Positions 8,653 to 10,776 of a stretch of DNA of 15,859 nt are shown one piece after another. Under the pieces are notes generated by a model. That model worked only from the letters and a program-made list of their open reading frames with translations. It was not told the origin of the DNA and made no database searches. The stretch spans positions 1 through 15,859 of the forward strand of contig JADZET010000436.1 of the NCBI GenBank assembly GCA_020850375.1, in the 5' to 3' direction. How positions within the stretch are numbered: the first letter of the stretch is position 1; each line of letters opens with the position of its first letter. This DNA comes from Phycisphaeraceae bacterium (GTDB lineage: Bacteria > Planctomycetota > Phycisphaerae > Phycisphaerales > Phycisphaeraceae). The position numbers and the translations under genes were made by a program.

Positions 8653-9564
8653 ATGACCACACCCGCCCCCGCCTACTGCGACCTCCACGCCCACTCCACC
8701 GCCTCCGACGGCACGGTCTCCCCCGCCGAACTGGCCGAGCTCGCCCACCGCGCCGGCCTGTCCGCCCTCTCTCTGACCGATCACGACACCGTCGCCGGCC
8801 TGGCCGAATGCGGCAAGGCCTGCCAACGCCTGGGCCTCGCCTTCGTCCCCGGCATCGAGGTCTCCGCCCAGCCCCCGAGCCTGGCGGATCACGCCGACCC
8901 CTCCTCCGCCACGACCGTCGGCACGCTGCACCTGCTGGGCTACTTCATCCAGCCCAACGACCCCGGCCTGCACGACGCCATCGCCCAGCTCCAGGACGCC
9001 CGCCAGCAGCGCAACCCCCACATCATCGAAAAGCTCCAAGAGCTCGGCGTCGCCATCGACTACGACCAAGTCGTCGCCCTCGCCCAAAGCCAGGGCTCAA
9101 ACGTCGTCGGCCGGCCGCACATCGCCCAGGTCCTGATCGACAAGGGCTACGTCAAGTCCATGCACGAGGCCTTCCGCCGCTACATCGGCCAGGGCGCCCC
9201 CGCCTACGTCCGCAAGGACCTGCTCGCCCCCGCCGACGTCATCGCCACCATCCACCGCGCCGGCGGCCTGGCCGTGCTCGCCCACCCCGTCCAGCTCCGC
9301 ATGCCGGACTTCGACACGCTGGCCCACCAGATCGTCCAGTTCAAGAAGATGGGCCTCGACGGCCTGGAAGTCCGCCACTGCGACCACACCCCCGCCGACG
9401 TCCGCCGCTTCGAAGCCCTGGCCAAGGACCTCGACCTGCTCACCACCGGCGGCTCCGACTACCACGGCCCGCGCAAACCCATCGAGCTCGGCTCCCAACG
9501 CGTGCCGATGGATTACTACCACCGCCTCCGCGAAGCGCACGAGAAGATGGCGGTCGCCCGCTGA
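8653..9564 (+). CDS. PHP-domain phosphoesterase (nucleoside 3',5'-bisphosphate phosphatase / RNase AM type)
   Basis: This 303-residue protein is a PHP-family metal hydrolase. The residues expected to bind three metals are all present: His12 and His14 in DLHAHSTASDGT with Asp19, Asp43-His44 in LTDHDT, Glu69 in GIEVSA, His93, His156 in GRPHIA, His211 in LAHP, and Asp269 and His271 in GSDYHG. The closest known relatives by motif are YciV/RNase AM, which removes nucleotides from 5' ends of RNA and dephosphorylates pAp. That role would suit a cell making PAPS with the cysC product, but this link is inference. ATG 8653 is chosen because AAGGA lies four bases ahead and the DLHAHS motif follows at residue 10, as usual. 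The frame stays open for over 1.4 kb upstream, but that stretch is antisense to the UroD-like gene. Confidence 0.92.
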   Translation: MTTPAPAYCDLHAHSTASDGTVSPAELAELAHRAGLSALSLTDHDTVAGLAECGKACQRLGLAFVPGIEVSAQPPSLADHADPSSATTVGTLHLLGYFIQPNDPGLHDAIAQLQDARQQRNPHIIEKLQELGVAIDYDQVVALAQSQGSNVVGRPHIAQVLIDKGYVKSMHEAFRRYIGQGAPAYVRKDLLAPADVIATIHRAGGLAVLAHPVQLRMPDFDTLAHQIVQFKKMGLDGLEVRHCDHTPADVRRFEALAKDLDLLTTGGSDYHGPRKPIELGSQRVPMDYYHRLREAHEKMAVAR

Positions 9565-9645
9565 TCTGACGCACGGGGTGCGTGGGTGGTACGTCCGTCA
9601 GAGCCGGGCACTGTGTGCCCGGACCGGGCTCGCAGAGCCCGGCTC
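9565..9645. repeat. Cluster of nested palindromes (REP-like) after the PHP gene
   Basis: Three inverted-repeat units follow the PHP stop codon. TCTGACG (9565-9571) pairs with CGTCAGA (9596-9602) and encloses GCAC-GGG-GTGC (9571-9581). Then come CCGGGCAC-TGT-GTGCCCGG (9604-9622) and CCGGGCTC-GCA-GAGCCCGG (9624-9642), two perfect 8-bp stems with three-base loops. In addition, the outer GAGCCGGGC (9601-9609) can pair with GCCCGGCTC (9637-9645), so the pair of hairpins can refold into one long structure. No T tract follows. It could end the PHP transcript, be a dispersed REP-type repeat, or mark the edge of the accessory pocket. Confidence 0.75.
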
Positions 9646-9752
9646 GGATTGCGCCCACATCCCGTCCGTGCATCCACCGTCGTACATGCAGGCTCGCAAA
9701 AAGATACAACGATGTGTGATGCGACGTTCCTGCCTAAAACAAGCAGTGCCCA

Positions 9753-9882
9753 GCTCTGTAGAAAACCAAAATAATCACTGATGCGTATCGTCATACCTTG
9801 TCAGAATTCCTCGACAAATTCTGACGATCGGAGACAAGATCACGTAATTGATCTTATCAAAAATCATCCTTTTCTACAGAGC
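9753..9882. other. 130-bp element closed by a perfect 13-bp inverted repeat, cloverleaf-like
   Basis: GCTCTGTAGAAAA (9753-9765) is the exact reverse complement of TTTTCTACAGAGC (9870-9882). Inside lie three further stems: TGATG / CGTCA (9779-9783 / 9789-9793, one U-G wobble as RNA), GTCAGAATT / AATTCTGAC (9800-9808 / 9817-9825, perfect), and AAGATCA / TGATCTT (9836-9842 / 9849-9855, perfect). The segment is AT-rich compared with its neighbours. Two readings are possible: a short non-autonomous mobile element with terminal inverted repeats, or a structured RNA leader with a closing stem and three arms. A hexamer GCAGTG flanks both ends (9743-9748 and 9884-9889) but is not directly abutting on the left, so it is not a clean target-site duplication. 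The orientation as RNA is unproven, and no family was recognised. Confidence 0.6.
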
Positions 9883-9924
9883 CGCAGTGTCCCCTATCCC
9901 GTCCCACGGAGTACACTGGGGCCA

Positions 9925-10776
9925 ATGATCGCAGCGAAGCGTGACTGGATCAATGGAATTAGCGTGCTGATCGCGCCCGAGGGACAAACTCCCGATCAGC
10001 CACTTTGCGATCTTGACGGACGTGGGGCAGAATCGGTCGCGGTAGGTTTCCACGTGCGGGGCGAAGGCCCGCCGTTTGTAGGGAAGAGCACCGTCGGGTT
10101 GTTCTACTATGGTTACCGGTCCAGCCATGAGCGGCTGGAGGAGATACTCGCGGATTTCCTTCGATACGAAAGCGCGCGGCGGCGCGTGCCTATCTTGTTC
10201 GCCACCACGGGGATCGATTTAGGTTCGCTCTGCCGAAGGGCCCTGCAATCCACTCCCGGTCCGTCTACACTGCGACCGTCCGATCCCAGATGGCTCGTCC
10301 ACTCGACGTGCCTTACTGCGGGCCATGAGATCCGGCGCGATGGGGCGATCAAGAGCTATGCCAGGCTCTGTGCCGAAGGAAGAAGACCCGCATGGCACGC
10401 TCTGCGCTCGGAATCGCTTGGCGAATTGCCCGAATATGCAGACCAGATCAACCTCGGGCGAACAGGCAGCCCGTGGGTGGAGGTCGTCCCGGCATCCCAT
10501 GCAGCCGGAGAGTTCCTCTCTCCCGACAGCACCTACACGCCTGGTTGGAGGTTCTACTTCGATGCCCACGAACTGATACGGTCGGGGCGAGTGATCCGAG
10601 CGGTCGGGGAGTTCAAAGTGGAGCACGAACTGCCACTTTCCGGCCTGTGTGTTGCCCAGATCGACCGACAGGCCGTCGATCCTGACGGCCGCGTGAGCGA
10701 ATGGACGCCGCGGCAGTTCACGGCGATCGCCGATCAGGTTGCGGTAGTCTCCGCAGATGCTGGCGCAGCCGGGTGA
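9925..10776 (+). CDS. Unrecognised 283-residue protein, possibly ADP-ribosyltransferase-like
   Basis: I do not recognise this gene with confidence. From ATG 9925 the protein has 283 residues, no signal peptide and no membrane span. The N-terminal half holds VGLFYYGYRSSHERLEEILADFLRY-type alternation. The C-terminal half has WLVHST (123-128), RRDGAIKSYARL (137-148) and TPGWRFYFDAHEL (205-217), which look like conserved blocks. A His-Ser-Thr followed by an RDGxIKSY-like helix faintly recalls the start of KptA/DarT-type ADP-ribosyltransferase folds; this is inference only. The frame is also open from ATG 9781, but the 48 extra codons are AT-rich and overlap the inverted-repeat element, so the later start is preferred; its ribosome site is weak (GGGG at 9918-9921). 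Codon use is less GC-biased than in neighbours, which suggests transfer. Confidence 0.6.
   Translation: MIAAKRDWINGISVLIAPEGQTPDQPLCDLDGRGAESVAVGFHVRGEGPPFVGKSTVGLFYYGYRSSHERLEEILADFLRYESARRRVPILFATTGIDLGSLCRRALQSTPGPSTLRPSDPRWLVHSTCLTAGHEIRRDGAIKSYARLCAEGRRPAWHALRSESLGELPEYADQINLGRTGSPWVEVVPASHAAGEFLSPDSTYTPGWRFYFDAHELIRSGRVIRAVGEFKVEHELPLSGLCVAQIDRQAVDPDGRVSEWTPRQFTAIADQVAVVSADAGAAG

Follow-up and report, generated by a model that had tools for sequence, protein, structure and literature searches.

A stretch of 15,859 nucleotides (the window) contains an AT-rich segment of 130 bases that can be drawn as a cloverleaf, and the question raised by this locus is whether the segment specifies a structured RNA or is a mobile element. 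Both explanations were offered in a sequence-only reading of the same DNA. Our analysis strongly indicates that the segment is an IS5-type miniature inverted-repeat element (MITE), which is non-autonomous, and not a folded RNA gene.

Boundaries and insertion marks of the element

The perfect 13-bp inverted repeat with arms 104 nt apart, from which the sequence-only reading started, was recovered by a repeat search at 9753–9765 and 9870–9882. The element reaches one base beyond this repeat on each side, and it is flanked by direct repeats which the earlier reading had overlooked. The following features were assigned:

9752–9883, no strand: probable MITE of 132 bp with ends NGCTCTGTAGAAAA...TTTTCTACAGAGCN; ends, target duplications and length were compared with those of other copies
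9752–9765, + strand: left terminal inverted repeat, complementary to the right end at 13 of its 14 bases; the outermost A is unpaired
9870–9883, − strand: right terminal inverted repeat
9743–9751, + strand: left copy of the 9-bp target-site duplication, GCAGTGCCC, identical to the right copy at 8 of 9 positions
9884–9892, + strand: right copy of the 9-bp target-site duplication, GCAGTGTCC
9766–9869, no strand: interior of 104 bp, with small hairpins at 9779–9793, 9800–9825 and 9836–9855
9925–10776, + strand: conserved hypothetical gene encoding 283 aa, a separate neighbor lying 41 bp downstream

The agreement between the two flanking repeats would be expected by chance with a probability of ~1e-4; target duplications are usual for MITEs. 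The contrast in composition that had been pointed out is also real, as the GC content is 38.6% in 9752–9883 versus 65.1% in the whole window. No ORF of at least 80 aa lies wholly inside the element, which at 132 bp is too short to hold a transposase gene.

Copies and autonomous partners in other genomes

The sequence-only reading had proposed a search for further copies. We scanned ~85,000 genomes, one per species, for TCTGTAGAAAA and TTTTCTACAGA separated by 89–119 bases and obtained 61 stretches with paired ends, which by record title belonged to Planctomycetota (40), DPANN archaea (8, all Nanoarchaeota or Woesearchaeota) and other groups (13). The GC that completes the ends was missing in 12 of these last 13. 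Copies were thus found to be dispersed, with differing flanks, as the earlier suggestion of a miniature inverted-repeat element had anticipated. In relatives, a single genome may hold many of them, e.g., 31 end matches in 1.2 Mb in G416. Viral contigs yielded no 13-bp paired ends 85–115 bases apart, and a plasmid search with the element or with an IS described below (L207) gave no match.

Target duplications were analyzed in 63 rows, which included the window and in which L033 was counted twice. GC was present on both sides in 45 rows, and 33 of these 45 GC-ended copies, the window among them, had flanks that matched as direct repeats in 7 or more of 9 bases at exactly 9 bp, perfectly so in 19 of the 33. 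When the offset was changed by −2, −1, 1, 2 or 3, a direct repeat was seen in at most 2 of the 45, and flanks swapped between loci gave 45 of 1980. Direct repeats of this kind at the exact 9-bp offset mark a transposon. In a set of 149 end pairs, 83 had a direct 9-bp repeat, 5 had inverted flanks only and 61 had neither. When up to four mismatches were allowed, 107 of 489 end pairs had a duplication, of 9 bp in 88 and of only 8 bp in 19.

Several other observations were made on these sets. Duplications of 8 bp occurred at L007, L018, L020, L130, L212, L215–L218, L220, L221, L224, L290, L293, L304, L324 and L370, many of them in genome G004. A few copies (L062:612–1670; L050, L053 and L163) had inverted flanking repeats, which in L062 were 39 nt long and 97% complementary. 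Inverted flanks as a rule were rejected, because the 5 of 149, a count that includes L007 with its 8-bp duplication, compare with ~2 expected if pairs followed the control rate (1.26%). In L010 and L050 (Bacteroidota records), the TCTGTAGAAAA pairs were located inside longer palindromes, e.g., with GCCCCGTAGGGGC arms, and lacked GC ends; these loci possibly represent a different repeat family. Clustered TGTAGAAAA-type motifs were seen in L033 and L034, from a Melainabacteria record and an uncultured bacterium, and both loci were rejected as family members because they failed the end test.

We also counted single 13-base ends against the reversed pattern in three class samples, as sums over per-genome tables; the samples include genomes known as carriers, and diverged copies escape exact-end matching. 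The class of G003 had 212 matches, spread over 60 of the 327 genomes sampled (reversed pattern, 18), and the Woesearchaeota class of G412 had 112 matches in 20 of 234 genomes (9 reversed), of which 50 came from one 1.1-Mb genome, G1228. In the class of G006, 146 matches in 52 of 347 genomes compare with 51 reversed matches in 46 genomes, and the excess was confined to a few genomes with many matches. Lone end matches in this class are therefore partly due to chance, as 52 genomes hardly exceed the 46 of the control. The class samples of G014 and G001 contain, centers aside, the same genomes as that of G003 and added little.

The same ends also border larger elements. In G014 they enclose an element of 1013 bp (L062) with a transposase frame of 350 aa, which has a TTG start and extends ~80 bases beyond the element end. 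The transposase matches PF01609 (6.5e-18), and its best NCBIfam model is IS5_2 (E 2e-37); we call the partner IS5-like rather than a member of IS5_2, because its score of 129.3 bits is below the curated cut-off of 140. ISs with the same ends were found at seven loci:

L062: 1013 bp
L122: 1016 bp
L124: 985 bp
L207: 1006 bp
L172: 989 bp
L339: 971 bp
L381: 896 bp

The last six match the L062 transposase by tblastn. L122, L124 and L207 are bounded by 9/9 duplications, L122 and L124 being complete ISs with the ends of the MITE, whereas no 9-bp duplication was found at L062 (2/9), L172 (4/9), L339 (4/9) or L381 (1/9). A candidate IS of 1002 bp was also detected at L423. L381, from a genome of the Woesearchaeota class, has GGCTCTGTAGAAAA ends and holds a transposase relative with 29% identity over 276 residues (tblastn), the longest open frame on the transposase strand being a C-terminal piece of 114 aa.

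Among 20 genomes chosen as carriers of the end, 5 had transposase matches, at 7 loci, and in 6 of the 7 the end sequence was located at or beside the transposase gene; the other 15 carrier genomes had no match at 1e-10. Of 392 Planctomycetota genomes, 15 contained matches at E 1e-25 or better (24 loci). Six of these loci were IS copies with 9/9 duplications, namely L122 and L124 and four relatives with GTTGAA-type ends (L128, L137, L140 and L143). With 4033 of 7997 scored proteins matching at 1e-10, the transposase belongs to a large family, and PF01609 was present in all of the best 120 of the 4033 relatives. A PDB sequence search with the transposase found no match.

Because the same ends border ISs of ~1 kb that encode an IS5-like DDE transposase, we interpret the element as a MITE moved in trans. 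It has terminal inverted repeats and a target duplication, lacks an internal transposase gene and has, in other genomes, an autonomous partner; this particular copy was probably moved by an IS5-like transposase. In the mechanism we propose, such an enzyme, supplied from an IS at another place that has the same ends, would bind the terminal repeats of 13–14 bp, the two ends would be paired by looping of the roughly 130 bp between them, and the element would then be moved and inserted by staggered cuts of 9 bp (8 bp in some lineages). Insertion would be preferred at weakly palindromic sites with an A-rich left flank and a T-rich right flank. The target profile, obtained from 84 distinct sites of 88 elements and with symmetry not forced, was A-rich at −7 to −3 with G at 0 on the left, favored G1, T3, C4, G6 and A7 within the duplicated 9 bp, and favored C10, C11 and T at 13, 14, 16 and 17 on the right. 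Some sites resemble AAAAGG-GGTCAGACC-CCTTTT. The site in the window, cctAAAACAA GCAGTGCCC ... CCTATCC, is only a partial fit.

The partner shares with the IS5 family the DDE transposase (PF01609, with IS5_2 as best model), a length of ~1 kb with a single transposase gene and target duplications of 9 bp (8 bp in some copies), and its distant relatives have TGCTTTGTTGAAAA-like ends. It differs in that the ends here read TGCTCTGTAGAAAA and in the NCBIfam score noted above. We take the closest IS5 subgroups to be IS903/ISH1-like; the ends of IS903 are similar, and its target duplications are likewise 9 bp long. As far as the available text of their descriptions goes, bacterial MITEs such as that of Porphyromonas gingivalis (PMC4596501) and MITEAba12 (PMC6382973) are likewise short and gene-less with terminal inverted repeats. 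In the present family, the ends are common to a phylum and to DPANN archaea, the interiors are unrelated between lineages, and the length is near 132 bp or differs from it by about whole turns. The inverted flanks seen at L062, L053 and L163 resemble the insertion into palindromic targets without direct duplication that is described in the accessible part of PMC5678879 for the IS1272/IS1182 family; however, direct 9-bp duplications prevail here (83 of 149, against the 5 inverted only). Planctomycetes were named as an IS reservoir in PMC9208149, the available part of which describes no such MITE. Within the accessible text of the open-licence literature, no description of such a family was found by a search for planctomycete MITEs, and the end sequence did not occur in a mobile-element context; its sole occurrence there concerns Candida.

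Preferred lengths and possible helical phasing

Lengths were compared among 88 elements detected strictly, i.e., with no more than four mismatches over both ends and direct flanking repeats that match in 7 of 9 bases. Of these, 83 were shorter than 400 bp, and three (L063, L064 and L256) were dropped for N. Runs of N in the genome records lie inside these three and inside L053, which failed the duplication test, and the lengths of all four are therefore unsafe. The remaining 80 elements formed 36 interior clusters, 15 of which had a modal length of 129–134 bp; in a looser set of 96 elements and 45 clusters the number was 16 (the window element is 132 bp), the first scan having been restricted to 117–147 bp. 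We consider the tight mode at 132 bp firm. Other favored lengths were about 121, 142, 153 and 164 bp.

This spacing of approximately one DNA turn suggests that the two ends have to be brought together by the transposase on the same side of a short DNA loop. We lean, with no great confidence, towards a model in which interiors are replaceable and transposition retains only lengths at which the two ends lie on the same loop face, i.e., ~121, 131.5, 142, 153 and 164 bp, in Planctomycetota and DPANN archaea alike. The looping step would then explain the preferred lengths. A phase test with a period of 10.5 bp and a phase of 131.5, applied to clusters outside 127–136, gave V 0.51 and p 4.5e-5 for 27 clusters of 60–240 bp, period and phase having been chosen after the first set was viewed. 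Clusters of later loci only gave V 0.59 (n = 8, p 0.0085), and clusters with only 8-bp duplications, most of whose lengths had been seen before the test, gave V 0.50 (n = 8, p 0.022). For the earlier set with the main peak excluded, p was 0.037 (50–240 bp), 0.010 (110–175) and 0.076 (60–175), and when the 36 clusters were tested against a smoothed null it was 0.0045 and 0.0073. Subsets were best fitted by periods between 9.6 and 11.2, and the last fit gave 10.8; some clusters were out of phase, namely two at 75 bp and others at 124, 135 and 138. Whole-turn spacing is likely, not proven.

A less probable but credible explanation is that the element is a MITE whose family owes its preferred lengths to common descent, the interiors having diverged since, and not to a helical constraint. 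Weak similarity indeed persists between clusters counted as separate (L026–L052, L251–L254, L243–L008 and L305–L303), and several of the lengths of 162–166 come from related archaea; descent could explain a part of the length pattern. However, freer merging into 37 clusters left the signal unweakened (V 0.58 and p 1.5e-5 for the 23 that lie outside the main peak), and insertions and deletions should shift exact lengths before sequence similarity is lost. Both points argue against this explanation.

The influence of length on IS50 was reportedly the subject of an experiment in 1994. A periodicity of ~10 bp is described, in the accessible text of PMC3464196, for the lengths of the internal eliminated sequences of Paramecium, where it was attributed to looping in a transpososome-like complex. 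Those elements are likewise short, but they are eukaryotic, are excised by a domesticated piggyBac transposase, number 45,000 copies and have lengths from 26 bp, whereas the present family is prokaryotic, with its main peak at 132 bp and tens of clusters. A search of the available open-licence literature for MITE length with helical terms found no prokaryotic title.

Folding and the neighboring gene

The sequence-only reading had also considered an undescribed structured RNA with a cloverleaf fold, either a leader of the gene at 9925 or a small RNA. We consider this very improbable. The stems themselves exist: the perfect 9-bp stem (9800–9808/9817–9825) was recovered by the repeat search, and the 5-bp stem with a U-G wobble (9779–9783/9789–9793) and the 7-bp stem (9836–9842/9849–9855) are in the + strand fold. 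The region 9733–9902 folds on the + strand with −48.8 kcal/mol (z −7.3), and on the − strand with z −4.8. The fold of the whole is strong, but the 104-nt interior alone gave only z −2.6 (+) and −2.7 (−), so that much of the strong z is owed to the closing repeat. Interior z was below −2 in just 21 of 44 copies on each strand.

Comparative data also argue against an RNA. The ends recur in other genomes with target duplications and with other interiors; interiors are unrelated between lineages, and that of the window is alone in its cluster, the element having chance-size matches only in 294 Planctomycetota genomes (best 22 bp, E 5.5e-4). There was no Rfam match at the gathering threshold and no tRNA in the whole window. 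Covariation, which the earlier reading had wished to see examined, was near zero in two subfamilies: the terms were 0.06 kcal/mol (4 of 34 pairs doubly changed, 10 sequences) and 0.85 kcal/mol (1 of 47, 8 sequences), and in both, pairs broken in some row outnumbered doubly changed pairs. In favor of the RNA, the central hairpin of L051, in one subfamily, has GGTGG/CCACC for GGGGG/CCCCC and by eye appears compensated, which an alignment offset may hide. A family-wide cloverleaf was rejected, as about half of the interiors had no excess folding and little covariation was seen in the two subfamilies; the fold is not a family trait.

The element is intergenic, and its position just before a gene, as had been noticed, would suit a leader. 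The product of that gene had no Pfam or NCBIfam match, and none of 10 other relatives had a precomputed Pfam domain. Five aligned relatives start from 8 residues before to 11 residues after the 9925 start, and none of the five shows the N-terminal extension from 9781. No sigma-70-like promoter or terminator-like site was found in 9560–9960, and because no such promoter was found in or near the element we claim no effect on the gene. Two adjacent GC-rich, short-loop hairpins at 9601–9645 (CCGGGCAC/GTGCCCGG and CCGGGCTC/GAGCCCGG), after the end of the upstream ORF at 9564, are REP-like and have no terminator-like T run.

Chance inverted repeats in an AT-rich spacer, already judged improbable in the earlier reading, may be dismissed. 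Perfect 13-bp repeats with arms 50–200 nt apart do arise at a low rate (mean 0.09, maximum 3, in 100 first-order Markov sequences; one in the window), but these paired ends are found repeatedly, in most cases in Planctomycetota, and with 9-bp duplications, and the reversed end gave 0 elements versus 88 for the real end in fetched loci chosen for the real end.

Our analysis thus brings to light a family of MITEs, together with an IS5-like partner, that extends across Planctomycetota and into some DPANN archaea. Should the length rule be true, these natural elements would record how far mechanics limits the pairing of two transposon ends, a matter otherwise accessible only with engineered constructs, and under the helical-twist reading they would be the prokaryotic equivalent of the eliminated sequences of Paramecium with their 10-bp length periodicity. 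The case also cautions that a spacer with a strong fold in Planctomycetota may be a MITE rather than an RNA gene.
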